From assembly GCA_021805445.1 (NCBI GenBank), contig JAJZFH010000049.1, positions 62,001 to 126,000 on the forward strand: a stretch of 64,000 nucleotides of DNA, in the 5' to 3' direction. Below are positions 317 through 7,277 of the stretch, piece after piece. This DNA is from Pseudomonadota bacterium. Lineage in GTDB: Bacteria; Pseudomonadota; Gammaproteobacteria; Burkholderiales; Ferrovaceae. Position numbers and translations under genes: made by a program. Position 1 is the stretch's first letter. Each line of letters opens with the position of its first letter. The notes under the pieces are model-generated. The model saw nothing but the letters and a program-made list of their open reading frames with translations, was not told the origin of the DNA and did not search any database.

Positions 317-931
317 TTATTTATGACAGAGCCAGCAATCGTTGGGACCATGACTGGTCACCGTGCTCCCCGCCTTTTCCAAATGATCTTTTTGGTGACA
401 ACTGACACACCAGCCCATGGACAACGCCTTGACCCGGCGCGCGGTCGTCATGGAAGCGATATCCCCATGACAGTACCCACAGGTTTCGCGAATGGGTCGT
501 TTTTCCTGGAAGTAAAAACGTTGAATATGGCGCTCATGGTTGAAACGAACGAAATCCGGCAAGTCATGCACTTTTTTCCAGGGAATGGGCTGTTTGTTTT
601 CCCAATATTCAAACAATTTCTTGATCCGCGGACGATCCTTGACGCCTTCGATCAAATTGTGGCACCCCATGCATTTGTCGAGACGGGGAATCCCGGACAC
701 GTTGCTGCGGCGCGCATAGGTATGGCAGTACATGCAGTTGATCTGCATGCGACCGGCATGGGTATTATGCGGAAACTCGATGGGTTGCTCCACCACCGGG
801 CCCAGCGCATCGTACCCATCACTGGTTTGCGAACCGATGGGCCCCCCCTGAACGAAAGGCTCCGCAAAGACCTGCGCACTCCCGATCCAGAACAGCATGA
901 TCCAGAGAAAAATTCTTTTTCCGTAATTCAT
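317..931 (-). CDS. actA: Pentahaem cytochrome c, alternative complex III subunit ActA
   Basis: The protein has 204 residues with an N-terminal hydrophobic segment (about residues 7-23) that is a signal peptide or membrane anchor. Five CxxCH haem sites lie at residues 66-70, 87-91, 151-155, 175-179 and 199-203; the last nearly ends the chain. Extra histidines (for example FPHNTHAG near 53-60 and NHERH near 131-135) could be distal ligands. Five haems in a small periplasmic protein directly before an ActB-like gene is the signature of alternative complex III, which oxidises quinol and passes electrons to periplasmic carriers or an oxidase. The gap to actB is 27 nt, so the two are cotranscribed. 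The role is inferred from family and context. Confidence 0.85.
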   Translation of the reverse strand: MNYGKRIFLWIMLFWIGSAQVFAEPFVQGGPIGSQTSDGYDALGPVVEQPIEFPHNTHAGRMQINCMYCHTYARRSNVSGIPRLDKCMGCHNLIEGVKDRPRIKKLFEYWENKQPIPWKKVHDLPDFVRFNHERHIQRFYFQEKRPIRETCGYCHGDIASMTTARRVKALSMGWCVSCHQKDHLEKAGSTVTSHGPNDCWLCHK

Positions 932-1964: not shown

Positions 1965-2705
1965 ATGCGTAAGTCATTCACTAAGATCACATCCGGGCTG
2001 GCTGTGGCCGCGGCTCTGGTGAGCATGACGGCTCTGGCTGAAGAAGAGGGGGTCATGAACGGCGACCCAGCCAACGGCAAGAAGATCTTCACGGAAGGGA
2101 AAGGCGCCGCTCCGGCGTGCATGACCTGCCATGGAGCCACAGGATGGGGAATGGAAGCCATGGGGGCTCCCCGTCTCAACAATCTCGGGTTTCCTTATAT
2201 CGTCAAGCAATTGACGGATCTGGCCGAAGGCCGGAGAACCCCGTCGGGTGCAGGAGCGGTCATGCCCCTGTTTGCACAACAACTCACGCCACAGGATCGA
2301 CGGGATGTCTCGGCTTACGTCAACTCCCTGCCCCTCGACCCCAAGGACCTGTCAGATTTGCAGGCGATCAAGGATGGGGGACAACCCATTGGAACCCGTT
2401 ACAAGGGAGAAATCCTGGTCAAGTACGGCGTAGGCGGCAAGGTTTCTGCCTGTATGTCTTGCCATGGGTACAACGGACGGGGTGCTGCGCCTGTTTTTCC
2501 AGTCATCGGGGAACAAAAGTTCACTTATCTGGTCAATCAGTTGCACAACTGGCGTGATGAGAGTCGTACAAACGACCCCTACGGGATGATGCGTGCCATT
2601 GCCAAAAAGTTGAGTGACGAGGATATCCTCGATGCCGCAACCTACCTGGCGACTGCACCACGTACCACGGAAGGGAACACGCGCGTCCCAAATACGACCC
2701 GGTAA
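1965..2705 (+). CDS. Dihaem cytochrome c (c4 family), periplasmic
   Basis: The 246-residue protein has a cleavable signal peptide (about residues 1-25, ending ALA) and two cytochrome c domains with haem sites CMTCH (52-56) and CMSCH (163-167). Candidate axial methionines are M100 in the first domain and the GMMR region near 208 in the second. Two fused class I domains of this length are typical of cytochrome c4, which relays electrons to terminal oxidases; CYC1 of acidophilic iron oxidisers is of this kind. A strong ribosome site (GGAGGGGGG) precedes the ATG. The gene is followed by a terminator-like hairpin and then an operon with another cytochrome. Confidence 0.92.
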   Translation: MRKSFTKITSGLAVAAALVSMTALAEEEGVMNGDPANGKKIFTEGKGAAPACMTCHGATGWGMEAMGAPRLNNLGFPYIVKQLTDLAEGRRTPSGAGAVMPLFAQQLTPQDRRDVSAYVNSLPLDPKDLSDLQAIKDGGQPIGTRYKGEILVKYGVGGKVSACMSCHGYNGRGAAPVFPVIGEQKFTYLVNQLHNWRDESRTNDPYGMMRAIAKKLSDEDILDAATYLATAPRTTEGNTRVPNTTR

Positions 2706-2745
2706 TCGTTGGCTTCAAGTCAGCGCATCAGGGGAGTGTGATCAG

Positions 2746-2774
2746 AACCCGCGTGCTTTGCGCGCGGGTTTTCT
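2746..2774 (+). terminator. Intrinsic terminator between cytochrome c4 and the downstream cytochrome operon
   Basis: Arms AACCCGCG (2746-2753) and CGCGGGTT (2763-2770) form an 8-bp GC-rich stem with a 9-nt loop, followed by a T-rich tail. Only 25 nt separate it from the next start codon, which leaves no room for a promoter after it. It may therefore act as a partial terminator that lowers expression of the following genes. Confidence 0.75.
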
Positions 2775-2799: not shown

Positions 2800-3378
2800 A
2801 TGAGATTCAACTCTTTGAAACTGGGCGAAAAGATTTTATTCGGCATCTTTGCACTCCTGGTTGTTTTTGCCGTGTCCAGTTTCGTGATGCTGGAAATCTA
2901 TCGCTCCCACCTCAATCACCCCATGTACCCCAATACCACCCAGTTTGATTTCACGCCGGAAGGCAAAGCGGGATCCCAGTTGTTTCGTGAAAAAGGGTGC
3001 ACCGATTGTCATCGTGCCCTGCGTAATGGAACCAACCACGGCGTGGTTCTGGATGGCATCGGCTCTCGGCATACTCTGGATTACATCGAATCATTCCTGA
3101 AAAAGCCCGAGTCCACCTACGAAACCAAAACAGTCGACCACGGTCTGAACAAGCAAGCCGCATACGTGGCGGCCTTGCCGGATAATGAAATTCATTCCAT
3201 CGCCATATTTTTATCGGAGTTGAAAGCGACTCAAGGCTCTGCCGATGCCCGTCTACCCATGCAGGAACGCTCCGGATTCGTGGATGAAATGGTCAAGGTC
3301 TGGGCCCCCAGTTCCTGGAAAACCGAATATCACGATCTGCGCGAGGATGCAGGTCAAAATCAGAAGGAGAAACCCTGA
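2800..3378 (+). CDS. Membrane-anchored monohaem cytochrome c
   Basis: The 192-residue protein has one N-terminal transmembrane anchor (about 13-33) and a single haem site CTDCH (67-71) soon after it; the rest should face the periplasm. The arrangement resembles the small cytochrome subunits of cbb3-type or nitric-oxide-reductase-type enzymes (CcoO or NorC), although overall similarity cannot be judged by eye. The next gene, 2 nt downstream, encodes a short protein resembling part of haem-copper oxidase subunit I, so the two may form a small haem complex in the inner membrane. The stop codon overlaps the ribosome site of that gene (AAGGAG). The electron partner is unknown. Confidence 0.8.
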   Translation: MRFNSLKLGEKILFGIFALLVVFAVSSFVMLEIYRSHLNHPMYPNTTQFDFTPEGKAGSQLFREKGCTDCHRALRNGTNHGVVLDGIGSRHTLDYIESFLKKPESTYETKTVDHGLNKQAAYVAALPDNEIHSIAIFLSELKATQGSADARLPMQERSGFVDEMVKVWAPSSWKTEYHDLREDAGQNQKEKP

Positions 3379-3380
3379 GC

Positions 3381-3890
3381 ATGTCTTCCACCGCCCCTTT
3401 CGATCAACGCATCAATGACCCGGAATACACGTTATTCACCCTCCTGTTCGTGTATGCCTGCATCACCTACGCCATCATCGGTTTTTCATGGGGGGCTCTG
3501 ATGGGGGGAATCCCCGCCTTTCGCATGTTTGTGGATTCGGCGCCTCATGGTCACCTCATCTTGCTGGCCCACGGCCACATCAATCTGCTCGGCTGGGTAG
3601 AAATGGCGATTTTCGGTGCCATCTACTACTTCGTCCCGCGCCTGGTCAATCGACCGATCTACAGTCTCAAACTGGTCAAGATCCATTTTTGGATGCACAA
3701 CATCGGATTGATGGGCATGGTGGTCCTGTTTTCCATTGCAGGCAGCATTGGGGGCTATGACCCGGGACCCGAGATAGAAAAGGCCGTCACCCATTTGATG
3801 GGGGGCGTAGGTTTTTTTGGCACGTTGGTTCTGCTTGCCAACATCATATGGGGCTATAATATCTTCAAGACTGGAAAGCAGGGAGTCTGA
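3381..3890 (+). CDS. Short four-helix protein resembling haem-copper oxidase subunit I
   Basis: The protein has 169 residues and about four hydrophobic helices (near 17-45, 57-86, 97-122 and 134-162). Histidines lie at 56, 58, 64, 66, 102, 106 and 138. The stretch HGHINLLGWVEMAIFG and the following YYFVPRL resemble helices of cbb3 and NOR-type catalytic subunits that ligate haem. A full subunit I has at least 12 helices arranged as three four-helix arcs, so this is about one third of one. The gene looks intact, with clean ends and no frameshift. It is cotranscribed with an anchored cytochrome c. Whether it binds haem or has any oxidase or sensor role is unknown. Confidence 0.7.
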   Translation: MSSTAPFDQRINDPEYTLFTLLFVYACITYAIIGFSWGALMGGIPAFRMFVDSAPHGHLILLAHGHINLLGWVEMAIFGAIYYFVPRLVNRPIYSLKLVKIHFWMHNIGLMGMVVLFSIAGSIGGYDPGPEIEKAVTHLMGGVGFFGTLVLLANIIWGYNIFKTGKQGV

Positions 3891-3896
3891 CGTCCC

Positions 3897-4412
3897 ATGA
3901 AATCAAAACTGAGGTATTCACTGATCGTCCTGGCCATGGCCTTGGGAAGTTGCGGCCAGCAGCAAGGCTTGGGACTGTCCCTGGGAACCCGGGCACCCAG
4001 ACTGGCCACCAAGACCCTGGCCGATGTCGGCGGAGACTTGAGCCGCATGACCACCTATCGCCAGCCCGATCCGCGCATGTACCAATATTCGCTGGATCAG
4101 GCACTGGCCACGGGAAAGCCGATTCTGCTCGAGTTCGCCACCCCAGGTCATTGTTCCGTCTGTGATCGGCAACTGCAGATCACCAAGGCCATGCTCGAAA
4201 AATACCAGCCGAATGTACTGTTTCTGCACATGGACCAGTATGAAAACCCCGAAGCATTCAAAACCTACCGTGTGATGGGCGATCCCTGGACCTTCGTGAT
4301 CGATGCACAGGGTATCGTCCGCTATCAGGAAGCGGGCCCTATGCTTTACCAGGAAATGGATGCAGCCATTCGGGCTGTTCTCCCTCTCCCTCATCAGGCT
4401 TCCCTCCCCTAG
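3897..4412 (+). CDS. Thioredoxin-like lipoprotein
   Basis: The 171-residue protein has a lipoprotein signal (ALGSC, lipid-modified C19) and a thioredoxin-like fold. CSVC (C86 and C89) follows a strand (KPILLEFATPGH), and a GDPWTFVID segment near 125-133 supplies the usual cis-proline. The two cysteines could reduce periplasmic disulfides or hold copper or haem during assembly, as Sco/SenC and DsbE proteins do near oxidase genes. Spacing to the preceding oxidase-like gene is 6 nt. A maturation factor for the two preceding proteins is the likeliest role, by context only. No strong ribosome site is visible, so coupling to the upstream gene is likely. Confidence 0.75.
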   Translation: MKSKLRYSLIVLAMALGSCGQQQGLGLSLGTRAPRLATKTLADVGGDLSRMTTYRQPDPRMYQYSLDQALATGKPILLEFATPGHCSVCDRQLQITKAMLEKYQPNVLFLHMDQYENPEAFKTYRVMGDPWTFVIDAQGIVRYQEAGPMLYQEMDAAIRAVLPLPHQASLP

Positions 4413-4453: not shown

Positions 4454-4921
4454 ATGCTGCGCTCCTTTGAATTGAAAAAAGATCCTCGAGGCATGACCTG
4501 GGATCTGTTGCTTTACATCCCCACGGTTTCCGCTCTGGGCGCCTTTGCCGCCAATGCCTGGTACGCGGCAAACCCGAATCTTTCCTATTTGCTCCTTTTC
4601 ATGGCCTGTTTCTTCTTGTTTGCGGGGGCCAATCGGGTGCTGAAGACCCGCCTGCTGTGCCTTCCCAGCGCACCTGTTCGACTGGAAGCCGATCCTCAGG
4701 CTCCCTGTGTGCGGGTCCATCTAAAAAACGGGACACACATCGAACTCCTCAAGGATATTCACGTATACCGTGAGTATTCTGGTCGCTCCATCGGACTGAC
4801 CGGACTGGATGCTGCAGGCAAACGCCTGCAATTCGTTTTTCACAAAGGGCAGTTTTCTCTCGAACGAGATTACCAGTCCCTCCAGGATTTCTTTGCCAAG
4901 AAGAAGGCACCCCTTCCCTGA
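4454..4921 (+). CDS. Hypothetical membrane protein, two N-terminal helices
   Basis: The protein has 155 residues. Two hydrophobic helices (about 17-36 and 43-60) are followed by a soluble part of about 90 residues, rich in beta-strand-like sequence with a KDIHVYREY segment. I do not recognise the family. The layout (helix pair plus small cytoplasmic domain) resembles bacterial PH-like membrane proteins, but I see no defining motif. It lies 41 nt after the thioredoxin-like gene on the same strand and may close that operon. Its start lacks a clear ribosome site. It ends 7 nt from a convergent small gene. Confidence 0.6.
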   Translation: MLRSFELKKDPRGMTWDLLLYIPTVSALGAFAANAWYAANPNLSYLLLFMACFFLFAGANRVLKTRLLCLPSAPVRLEADPQAPCVRVHLKNGTHIELLKDIHVYREYSGRSIGLTGLDAAGKRLQFVFHKGQFSLERDYQSLQDFFAKKKAPLP

Positions 4922-4928
4922 CCCATGG

Positions 4929-5129
4929 CTAGCGGCGACGACGCACCACATCCCAAGCCATGAATCCGATCACCACCGCCACCCCTGAGCAAGCCATCCC
5001 CATGTAATGATATTCCCTGTCTGCCGGGACCAACCCCCCCACCAGCATGTGCACGGTATAGGCGGTCAGGAACAGCGAACTCAGGGTCACCACCCCATAA
5101 ACCAAGGCTTCACGAGGGCTGATTTTCAT
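4929..5129 (-). CDS. Small two-helix membrane protein, unknown function
   Basis: This 66-residue protein has two predicted helices (about 8-30 and 41-58) and a basic C-terminal tail (DVVRRRR). Its ATG overlaps the TGA of the preceding large membrane protein in an ATGA, which implies coupled translation and a shared role. I do not recognise a family. The overlap and clean hydrophobic pattern make it more likely real than a chance frame. Confidence 0.6.
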   Translation of the reverse strand: MKISPREALVYGVVTLSSLFLTAYTVHMLVGGLVPADREYHYMGMACSGVAVVIGFMAWDVVRRRR

Positions 5130-6598
5130 TTGATGGGGTCTCCGGGTGCAGGAGGGGGCGGCTCATCGAGTACCGGTGCGGGTGCCGCAGGAGCCAGGTT
5201 GGGCGTGCGGATCTGCAAGACAACCCCTCCGACTTGCAAGGAAAGGGTCTCCACTTCATTCCCCAGCAGAGACAAGTTTTGAGTCAACCCCAGGTTGGCC
5301 GGAGTTTTTGGTGCCATGATCAGATGGGTCAATCCTCTCATCATGACCAATTGAGCGGCGGGATCCTTGGCGGCGGGGGGAAGAGGCAAGGCATCGCACC
5401 GACAAGCCAACATGGTTCGTGCGGGCCATTGGCTCGCGATCCGTAGACGTGGATCCGGCAGATGACGGGCTTCCGCATCGGTACGGTACTGTTCCACCGT
5501 CTGGGTAAGCGTCCATATCAGTTGATCCTGTTCGGTCAATTGGCGTACCTGCCCCAACGCAAACCAGGCACGATCATCCTGCATGCTGAGGGTAGAGATC
5601 AGGAAGATCCCCAGAAGGACCCAGCCCCGTTGCGCCAAAAAACCAATCTTTCCGGCGCCCCATTCGAGTAGCGCAGGAATCCCCGCATAAAGTAGCGTGA
5701 TCATGCCCAGCAAAGCAAAGGTGGCGTCCCCATTGAGGGAGGAAACCAGGACTCCCCACCAGAGACACCGCCCCAACAAAGTCTTCCAGAGTATCTGCCG
5801 CTTTTGCCACCATACCCAAAGCATCAGGATGAGAATCAAAATTCCCGCCCCCCAATCTGCAGCCGTGAGTTCCGGTTCAAAACCGGGGAAATGACCCCAC
5901 AAGGGGGTCCAGTCACGCAGTGGGTTCTGAAACCAGGTTACCCCGCTCCAACCCCAACGCAGCAGAATCGAGATTCCCGAAAAAACCGTCAATCCTATGA
6001 AAAATGTTTTTTTCTGCAAGGAATTCACCGGGTTTTTATGCCACTCCCAAGCCAGAAGCAGCGGGTAGACCAGCCCCACCGGGTGTAGGCTGACGGCAAA
6101 GGCGGACAACCCCAATTGCCCAAAATACAATCCGCTCAATGCGTGGGGTCGTTGCCGATAGGAACGGTCCAGCCAGTATCCCCCCATGAATGCGACCAGT
6201 ATTCCCAGTCCGGGAGAAAGGTGATCGATTTGCAACAGGGTCAGCGGTGTCAGTAGCCATAATCCCGTGGCCAACAAAGCCGCCTCGTCCTGTCCTTCCA
6301 GGGACTGCCAGCGGTATAGTCCCCATGCCGTGAGCGCAGCCAGGGCGATCATCACTCCCTTGGCAGCCATGACCTGCCCGGGCCACAGGAATCCCAGAGG
6401 AAGCCAGAGAAGATCGCGAAAGTCCGGCACCCCCAGTGTCACGATGGAATTGGCCACATGGTCGGCCACGGACCAATCCAGCAGCAGTGCCTTGGCTGCT
6501 TCTTCCTCTATTCCGTAAGGCCCTCGGTGCAGAACCAGAAATGTTGCCACAGCCCAGACCAAAAGGGCCAACATGCCCCACTGCCTCAAACCCAACAT
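5126..6598 (-). CDS. Large polytopic membrane protein, possibly GT-C-type glycosyltransferase-like
   Basis: The 490-residue protein has roughly ten hydrophobic helices through residue 350 and a soluble, proline-rich C-terminal part ending PPPPAPGDPIK. An early acidic pair (GIEEEAAKA, after the first helix) and the general shape recall GT-C glycosyltransferases such as ArnT/PMT family members, but no diagnostic motif confirms this. The start at 6598 has AAGGAG 7 nt upstream. An in-frame start at 6703 would overlap the preceding cytochrome gene and has no such site. It is coupled to the small membrane gene downstream and lies 58 nt after cytochrome c4, so it could be cotranscribed with it. Confidence 0.65.
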   Translation of the reverse strand: MLGLRQWGMLALLVWAVATFLVLHRGPYGIEEEAAKALLLDWSVADHVANSIVTLGVPDFRDLLWLPLGFLWPGQVMAAKGVMIALAALTAWGLYRWQSLEGQDEAALLATGLWLLTPLTLLQIDHLSPGLGILVAFMGGYWLDRSYRQRPHALSGLYFGQLGLSAFAVSLHPVGLVYPLLLAWEWHKNPVNSLQKKTFFIGLTVFSGISILLRWGWSGVTWFQNPLRDWTPLWGHFPGFEPELTAADWGAGILILILMLWVWWQKRQILWKTLLGRCLWWGVLVSSLNGDATFALLGMITLLYAGIPALLEWGAGKIGFLAQRGWVLLGIFLISTLSMQDDRAWFALGQVRQLTEQDQLIWTLTQTVEQYRTDAEARHLPDPRLRIASQWPARTMLACRCDALPLPPAAKDPAAQLVMMRGLTHLIMAPKTPANLGLTQNLSLLGNEVETLSLQVGGVVLQIRTPNLAPAAPAPVLDEPPPPAPGDPIK

Positions 6599-6656
6599 CC
6601 GTGAACTCCTTGAAATCAAGCAAAAACTCTGTCGATGAATAGAAACGAAGTCAAAA

Positions 6657-7277
6657 TCAATACACGCCAGCAGCGTAGTCCGACAGAGCCTTGACTTCTT
6701 CATTGGTCAGACGATGCGCAATGGTACGCATCACGGCAGCCGGGTCATTGCTGCGCGTGCCATCCTTGAAATGTTGCAACTGCAGTTCGGTATATTCCTG
6801 GTACTGCCCTGAAAGACGCGGATAAAGTGCAGGAACCCCTGCGCCCGTGGGACCGTGGCAACTGGAACACGCGGGGACTCCCCGGTCTGCATCCCCGCCC
6901 CGCCAAAGTCTCTGTCCGATGGACACGAGCTTTGGATCATTGGCGCGCGTCAGATGAGGGGGCTGGATTGCATACCAGGCCGCTACATTGCGCATATCCT
7001 CTGCACTGAGCATGGAAACGATGCCGGCCATGATGGGATTGTCCCGAGCGGGAGGTGCCCCGTTGACCGACTTCATATCATTCAATTGCTTGACCACATA
7101 GTCCGGAATCTGTGCCGCCAAATGGGGTTGGGTCGGGATCGGACTGACGCCATCCAGACCATGACAGGCATAGCAGATGGAAGCCGCAATGACCTTGCCT
7201 TTTTCCGGATCACCCGGTTGCGCCCAGGCAGGAAGAACCAGCAGACTCAGCAGGAGTCCAGTCATCCATTTATTCAT
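6657..7277 (-). CDS. Second dihaem cytochrome c4
   Basis: The 206-residue protein has a signal peptide (about 1-19, ending AWA) and two haem domains with CYACH (35-39) and CSSCH (137-141). Conserved c4 features include GxPxL/YPRLSGQ after the second haem and methionines placed as axial ligands (M83 region and M184 region). It is a periplasmic carrier between quinol-oxidising complexes and terminal oxidases. It is shorter than the c4 protein at 1965-2705 and differs throughout, so the two are not a recent duplication. AAGGA lies upstream of the ATG. A TAGAAT hexamer at 7334-7339 on the minus strand may be its own -10 box. Confidence 0.93.
   Translation of the reverse strand: MNKWMTGLLLSLLVLPAWAQPGDPEKGKVIAASICYACHGLDGVSPIPTQPHLAAQIPDYVVKQLNDMKSVNGAPPARDNPIMAGIVSMLSAEDMRNVAAWYAIQPPHLTRANDPKLVSIGQRLWRGGDADRGVPACSSCHGPTGAGVPALYPRLSGQYQEYTELQLQHFKDGTRSNDPAAVMRTIAHRLTNEEVKALSDYAAGVY

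Follow-up and report, generated by a model that had tools for sequence, protein, structure and literature searches.

A one-repeat relative of oxidase subunit I in Ferrovum, a probable partner of a divergent cbb3-type oxidase

The gene block and its proteins

The DNA analysed here (the window; 64,000 nucleotides, G000:C21:62001-126000) belongs to a 1.97-Mb genome, judged by its close relatives to be that of a Ferrovum, an acidophilic iron oxidiser. Near its left end, three intact and tightly spaced genes—2 bases separate mcytc from mini, and 6 bases mini from trxlp—encode an anchored cytochrome c, a 169-residue membrane protein and a CSVC lipoprotein in an order that is conserved elsewhere. The initial annotation had proposed an operon of these three. 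The gene positions within its extent of 2800-4412 hold; the conserved block itself is wider, reaching from the c4-type cytochrome gene at 1965 to position 4921 (Table 1). The labels mini, mcytc, trxlp, mem155, miniP, c210 and ccoQ109 were coined in this analysis. Ferrovum myxofaciens P3G carries a 98% match to mini, and the further close relatives are Ferrovum MAGs. Judging from its sequence, the hairpin between c4 and mcytc may end or attenuate the c4 transcript. The ActA-like gene forms the right end of an ACIII/Qrc-like cluster, which runs leftwards beyond the window to cbb3-like oxidase genes. We also observed, on the minus strand at 1224-1529, a gene for a small protein with a Tat-like leader and, by eye, a HiPIP-like cysteine pattern, for which a Pfam HiPIP match was absent. 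Also on this strand, 4929-7277 encodes a protein of 66 aa and a multi-helix protein of 525 aa, neither of which has a Pfam match, as well as another di-haem c cytochrome. Other genera, too, carry relatives of the 525-aa protein close to the block.

Table 1. Features at the left end of the window (positions within the window)
Feature	Position	Strand	Remarks
Multihaem cytochrome c, ActA-like	317..931	-	named from position beside ActB/QrcB-like genes
Di-haem cytochrome c (c4 type)	1965..2705	+	upstream neighbour in 74/80 loci (best 80 of 334)
Terminator-like hairpin between c4 and mcytc	2744..2772	+	13 pairs, T-rich tail; consensus match only
mcytc, membrane-anchored mono-haem cytochrome c	2800..3378	+	192 aa, intact ORF; CTDCH and invariant His114
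mini, one-repeat COX1 protein	3381..3890	+	169 aa, intact ORF; four long helices; invariant H64, H66, H102, H106
trxlp, thioredoxin-like lipoprotein	3897..4412	+	171 aa, intact ORF; lipobox Cys19, CSVC motif
mem155, small membrane protein, conserved fourth gene of the block	4454..4921	+	

The cytochrome mcytc has one CxxCH motif and one N-terminal anchor helix (residues 8-37). Both His114, which sits within a T-x-D-H motif, and Met164 are invariant in 76/76 sequences. The mcytc paralogue of the oxidase cluster described below carries an RMPS motif, as expected of an axial Met, and His114 of mcytc aligns close before that place, which suggests His/His ligation of the mcytc haem through His114; the predicted structure is poor (pLDDT 68.0, pTM 0.47) and leaves both His114 and Met164 eligible as the sixth ligand. 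In trxlp, the lipobox ends at Cys19 and the motif GHCSVC follows, with C19, C86 and C89 invariant in 78/78 distinct homologues. Its scores against the Pfam families AhpC-TSA (25.1 of 26 bits) and Thioredoxin (20.9 of 23.5) are both just under the gathering score, and a profile search links it to PDB chains of the thioredoxin fold (best E 8.8e-5). For mem155, neither a Pfam match above cut-off nor a PDB relative was found.

Fold and histidines of mini

Mini matches the Pfam family COX1 (PF00115) with 54.1 bits (E 1.6e-14; cut-off 34.8), over profile positions 308-405 of 436 only, and 36/36 of its homologues match the same family at E <= 0.01. Against the CcoN equivalog TIGR00780 it scores 41.3 bits, below the cut-off of 583. 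DUF2871 (PF11070) resembles mini in being a short membrane family and is matched at E <= 0.01 by 22/36 homologues; it differs in that mini of the window stays below the cut-off (15.1 bits against a gathering score of 27.4). The AlphaFold2 model built with the 36 homologues (pLDDT 90.1, pTM 0.83) contains long helices at residues 14-43, 58-88, 96-122 and 130-166, besides two short ones (9-12, 45-53)—that is, four long helices in 169 residues instead of the twelve helices and three units that define COX1. With this model, Foldseek returned CcoN chains for all of its top six matches (query TM 0.76-0.79; E 1.1e-3 to 6.2e-3, none < 1e-3), and VIA-align gave Z scores of up to 16.4 (rmsd 4.5, 160 aligned), which exceeds the tool's warning level for helical bundles of about 13. 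The CcoN rows of the latter comparison cover most of the chain, and several mitochondrial oxidase rows consist of the last unit alone, e.g., 1occ_A 332-480 (Z 13.4, rmsd 2.7).

Sequence profiles lead to the same family, the best PDB relatives of mini being cbb3 CcoN chains. When the mini profile was aligned by hhalign to the repeat units of the CcoN homologue of the same genome (the partner CcoN), unit 3 scored 102, and units 1 and 2 scored 42 and 45; in the nitric oxide reductase 4xyd, it is the first unit that matches best. A search of the PDB for a solved one-repeat relative yielded only full-length oxidases and NO reductases, besides chance matches. Plasmid records that match mini include 62 rhizobial ones, in which the matching feature is ccoN in the annotated rows listed, one row being without a feature. 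As modelled, mini thus has the fold of one four-helix repeat unit of subunit I, nearest the third, in which the HxH ligands of helix X are found. The proposal of a four-helix, subunit-I-like protein is therefore upheld: the COX1 profile search suggested as a check gave a score above gathering, and the lack of fold similarity that was to speak against the proposal did not occur. With CcoN (PF00115; PDB 3mk7, 6xkw, 9g83), mini shares the four-helix unit, the HxH motif of helix X and the stretch from there on through the VPRL and YS..LV..HFW motifs, whereas it has one unit in place of three and lacks the CuB His pair.

The seven histidines listed in the initial annotation (56, 58, 64, 66, 102, 106 and 138) are placed correctly; a meaning for all seven is not borne out. 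H64, H66, H102 and H106 are invariant in 80/80 distinct sequences, a set made up of the window and the loci from the best 80 of 334 matches, with identical copies and copies of <70% full length excluded. The other three are the ones to which the refuting outcome of non-conserved histidines applies, H56 being kept in 62/80, H58 in 35/80 and H138 in 36/80 of these sequences. Across an alignment of 36 sequences, 50 of the 169 columns are invariant. H64-x-H66 aligns with the HxH of helix X, which we take to provide the ligands of the high-spin and the low-spin haem in cbb3 enzymes. By eye, this motif is the only clear counterpart in mini of the COX1 set of six His and the cross-link Tyr, and neither a CuB-type HH pair nor a NorB-type FeB ligand set was found in the mini sequences inspected in this way. 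H102 aligns, again by eye, with an HFW motif that is also present in units 2 and 3 of CcoN, and it need not be a haem ligand. From the helix positions in the model, H102 and H106 would lie near the other membrane end from H64 and H66. H64 and H66 share a helix and cannot both ligate the same haem, so that any haem held by mini would have to draw its other ligand from a second chain. Distant one-repeat proteins (L070, L072, a Thermus protein and miniP, described below) keep the HxH motif but not H106. Two candidate functions were rejected, namely a stand-alone oxidase, the ligands for which are missing from mini, and an NO reductase module, for which the NorB-like catalytic set is absent by eye and NorH is unmatched.

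Conservation of the block and its occurrence with a cbb3-like oxidase

Synteny was counted in the best 80 of 334 confirmed relatives in named genomes. Mcytc lies upstream of mini in 77/80 of these loci, the remaining three ending there, and the six loci without the c4 gene likewise end at that point. Downstream, trxlp is found in 78/80 (76 by script, plus L123 and L144 by hand, in which naive ORF starts overlap the preceding gene); of the other two, L141 stops at this point, and L102, which comes from a MAG and bears the label Rhizobiales, is a fragment that lacks both trxlp and mem155 though its sequence continues. Mem155 follows trxlp in 76/80, being absent from L092, L102 and L136 with sequence present, while L141 ends before it. 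The neighbours of mini are hence kept in 76-78 of the 80 loci, more than chance would give, in agreement with the proposed co-occurrence of the genes—the lack of which had been named as a refuting outcome—and the thiol-redox-like lipoprotein is the steady companion it was suggested to be. Labels of these loci include Ferrovum, Gallionella, Nitrotoga and gammaproteobacterial MAGs, among them Ectothiorhodospiraceae, Chromatiaceae and Thiotrichaceae.

Median identities over loci L095-L152 are 63% for mini, 62% for trxlp, 51% for both mcytc and c4, 48% for mem155 and 84% for CcoN (L108 is still Ferrovum, and the CcoN figure includes five probable cross-hits among 42 values). None of the neighbours c4, mcytc, trxlp and mem155 is better conserved than mini. 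Internal stops are absent from 34/34 matches of the class sample and occur, one each, in 2/45 matches of the phylum sample; a single Ferrovaceae copy (G020) is split into two frames. A truncated gene was rejected on this conservation and the near-absence of stops, that one split copy apart. That mini could be a degenerate remnant of a second ccoN copy, retained through hitch-hiking or by chance, is hardly credible: its sequence is nearest unit 3 of CcoN, an AU test allows it to join unit 3 of its partner (p 0.439), and the G020 copy is indeed broken, but the 63% median identity, the scarcity of stops and the four histidines kept in 80/80 sequences strongly disfavour such an origin.

The partner in Ferrovum is an intact 12-helix CcoN homologue encoded at C21:53543-54946. 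This place is 7 kb beyond the window and about 10 kb from mini, from which the ACIII/Qrc-like cluster separates it. The same gene cluster also encodes a CcoO-like protein, another anchored cytochrome, a protein with an FGE-sulfatase domain and several small proteins that match no family; ccoQ109 (109 aa, no family match) owes its label to size and place alone. In the partner CcoN, residues H64, H205, Y249, H255, H256, H343 and H345 are kept in 14/14 sequences, and their ligand roles are presumed from cbb3 numbering. Its score against the ccoN equivalog is 224.3 of 583 bits, below the cut-off, and members of its clade are 72-88% identical to the Ferrovum copy. In the partner CcoO (319 residues), the stretch 177-266 matches PF02433, the mono-haem CcoO/FixO family, with 60.9 bits (cut-off 29.6); against NCBIfam ccoO the protein scores 62.8 of 200.65 bits, again below the cut-off. 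No di-haem CcoP was recognised among the oxidase-cluster proteins scanned. By these sequence comparisons, the partner is a divergent cbb3-like (C-family-like) oxidase clade, conserved within itself. A 12-helix CcoN homologue was present in 37/80 loci (best 80 of 334); in 35 of them its gene starts 1.7-4.9 kb downstream of mini, and in two it precedes mini. Locus flanks are at most 6 kb, and absence from the remaining loci is thus uninformative. The whole block together with a partner-clade CcoN occurs, for instance, in the Nitrotoga fabula locus (L135).

The formylglycine-enzyme-like (FGE-sulfatase) protein (L032:1894-2949, G000:C21:48891-49949) is a steady member of the oxidase cluster, with homologues in L188, L191, L193, L196-L203 and L205-L207. 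Spermidine-synthase-like genes, recognised by eye at L031:15631-16962 and L032:1-1252 (about G000:C21:45631-48252), lie between the CcoG-like and the oxidase genes and recur in the second class.

To follow mini and the oxidase clade across genomes, two samples were compared. Among the 369 genomes of the class sample, 34 carry mini, each with a match at E <= 2.1e-77, the one after these being at 8.9e-24. The CcoN clade is present in 31 (30 whole, and G093 in two pieces), every one of which also has mini; the 31 exclude G095, whose intermediate CcoN scores 662 bits. Mini was found without a detected CcoN in G136, G251 and G346, and in G251 (97% complete) and G136 (96%) it lies on contigs of 6.9 and 3.6 kb. 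The phylum sample of 398 genomes gave 45 with mini, 42 with CcoN and 39 with both—six with mini alone and three with CcoN alone—and the nine discordant genomes of the 48 positives are all <90% complete. Besides the window genome, the positives of this sample come from another class, presumably Zetaproteobacteria, and there from families f230, f250 and f263. In 20 stretches around CcoN from this second class (L190-L209), mcytc, mini, trxlp and mem155 stand together with ccoN in 11, and in six of the 20 (L191, L198, L200, L202, L203, L207) mcytc-mini-trxlp-mem155-ccoN-ccoO-...-ccoG run on one strand. Six stretches (L192, L193, L197, L199, L201, L208) extend no further than about 2 kb from ccoN on the block side or hold only the last block gene, and L194, L196 and L205 (genomes G499, G527, G626) extend for several kb on the mini side without the block, mini being on another contig. 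Within the class sample, about 333 kb separate block and oxidase genes in G337, and in G081 and G229 the two are on different contigs.

In the sampled genomes, mini therefore occurs near-exclusively with this oxidase clade, and its block is linked to the oxidase genes often, not always. The initial annotation had seen a self-standing minimal complex, a view that the co-occurrence of mini with a full 12-helix cbb3-like oxidase does not support. An independent small haem complex, in which mcytc and mini would form a redox unit of their own (from cytochrome c to quinone, for NO handling, or as a sensor), is unlikely on the same grounds, since the presence of mini tracks one oxidase clade almost exactly, and the CuB-type and NorB-type ligand sets looked for by eye are absent. 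What speaks for such a unit is the self-contained operon with its own cytochrome and a remote one-repeat relative in a Thermus nitrite/NO cluster.

Possible role and other one-repeat proteins

Mini is best explained, at a probability of about 0.52, as a dedicated membrane partner of the divergent cbb3-type oxidase and probably as an accessory subunit that carries haem b. The predicted fold, the conserved residues, the conserved block and the near-exclusive co-occurrence support a partnership; physical contact, haem binding, the direction of electron flow and the role of the lipoprotein are what we infer from them. Mini would use H64/H66 to hold haem b where it meets another chain—a second mini, CcoN or mcytc—and, together with mcytc, could extend or stabilise the electron-entry side of the oxidase, while the CxxC lipoprotein might keep haem-c or copper thiols reduced during assembly.

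Counting against a partnership are the genomes in which block and oxidase genes lie apart, those with only one of mini and CcoN, the G095 oxidase with its other kind of one-repeat protein (below), locus L102 without trxlp and mem155, and the second chain that haem binding would call for.

A role in assembly is the main alternative, possible if somewhat unlikely: mini, the cytochrome and the CxxC lipoprotein would insert haem b or copper into the CcoN of this clade and be absent from the final enzyme. CcoG, CcoH, CcoI, CcoS and Sco proteins assist the maturation of known cbb3 enzymes. An assembly factor would fit a block that is separable from ccoNO and has a thioredoxin-like lipoprotein as a steady member, as well as the CcoG-like and SCO1-family genes near the paralogue miniP. 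However, a cytochrome with covalent haem would be unusual in such a role, and the 50 of 169 invariant columns (36 sequences) and the kept HxH suggest a part that bears a cofactor. We favour the accessory subunit over the assembly factor because the haem-ligand HxH is kept, conservation is at least that of the neighbours, and a cytochrome with covalent haem lies alongside. Mini is a near-constant companion of a full oxidase rather than a minimal oxidase, and probably an overlooked part of it or an assembly helper.

Reportedly, cbb3 enzymes come in 'proximal' and 'distal' forms, a division ascribed to Ducluzeau and the year 2008, and the partner oxidase is presumably one of these. Both forms are described in iron oxidisers (PMC8788666, PMC7029218, PMC10734462), and the accessible parts of these three sources name no small one-repeat subunit for them. 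In PMC8788666, subunit composition is said to differ, and a cyc1 homologue stands beside a cbb3 cluster. Excerpts of PMC8788666 and PMC7029218 place cbb3-type oxidases at the oxygen end of the iron-oxidation chain, and that of PMC6050957 gives N. fabula a cbb3 oxidase as the oxygen end of nitrite oxidation; the cbb3 genes named in these three are CcoN, CcoO and CcoP only. The enzyme meant in this literature is presumably of the present clade. For Ferrovum JA12, the relevant passages of PMC4725956 report a cbb3 oxidase of which subunits I and II alone were identified, and they suggest a co-localised cytochrome for subunit III. In Tenderia electrophaga, as far as excerpted from PMC5371394, one canonical ccoNOPQ operon with low expression exists next to further oxidase-like complexes, one of them highly expressed. 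The one-repeat subunit is unnamed in the excerpts of PMC4725956, PMC6050957 and PMC5371394, and equally in those of PMC3179512, PMC4643136, PMC3770913, PMC8250860, PMC10654088, PMC5748679 and PMC10879576. In the open-licence papers searched, we found no description of a one-repeat subunit I protein. If the oxidase needs such a homologue of its subunit I along with an anchored cytochrome of its own, its composition, electron entry and assembly would have to be redrawn.

One-repeat proteins could also, if the reading is true, offer a handle on the origin of the three-fold oxidase fold. A tree of repeat units (73 rows, 139 columns) places mini as a clade (99/97) outside unit 3 of CcoN. By AU tests, neither a single origin of all one-repeat proteins (p 0.175) nor the joining of mini with unit 3 of its partner (p 0.439) is rejected, and joining all one-repeat proteins with all unit 3 sequences gives 0.057; between a protein cut out of subunit I and one older than subunit I, the tree is not decisive. 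It would be a long shot that one-repeat proteins descend from the four-helix unit of subunit I as it was before triplication and are still homotrimers, in which each of three pores has a haem b held between H66 from one chain and H64 from its neighbour, docked here to a modern oxidase.

One genome of the class sample, G095, has an intermediate oxidase (L183, G095:C157:1-14000; CcoN 57% identical). Its CcoN gene adjoins one for a miniP-like protein, and the cluster further encodes a trxlp-like lipoprotein and two cytochromes that resemble mcytc; mini is absent. A one-repeat protein may thus be a general companion of this oxidase group, though not always the same one.

NorH resembles mini in being a small membrane protein and an extra subunit of a haem-copper superfamily enzyme; work attributed to Bricio and the year 2014 is said to have identified it as the third subunit of the Thermus nitric oxide reductase NorCBH. 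It differs in its 98-aa length and in that the one-repeat protein of Thermus is another gene of the same cluster, and Thermus NorH gave no match at E <= 10 to the mini and miniP profiles. NorCBH is also named in the accessible part of PMC5748679.

Other one-repeat proteins were noted in passing. A Thermus thermophilus plasmid (NC_017273.1, L210:5989-6366) encodes a 125-aa one-repeat relative that is annotated as hypothetical. In the nitrite/NO cluster, its gene comes right behind those for the Rrf2, DUF542 and cupin-like proteins and is divergent from norC-norB-norH; with L072 as the query, plasmid records gave 16 Thermus matches, whose features read 'hypothetical protein'. Left of the window, the Ferrovum genome itself encodes miniP (L031:12935-13459, G000:C21:42935-43459), a second one-repeat COX1 protein of 174 aa that matches PF00115 with 42.5 bits. 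The miniP gene adjoins an SCO1-family gene and lies about 0.9 kb from a CcoG-like gene, and relatives of it are found near ccoG or ccoN in Gallionella loci.
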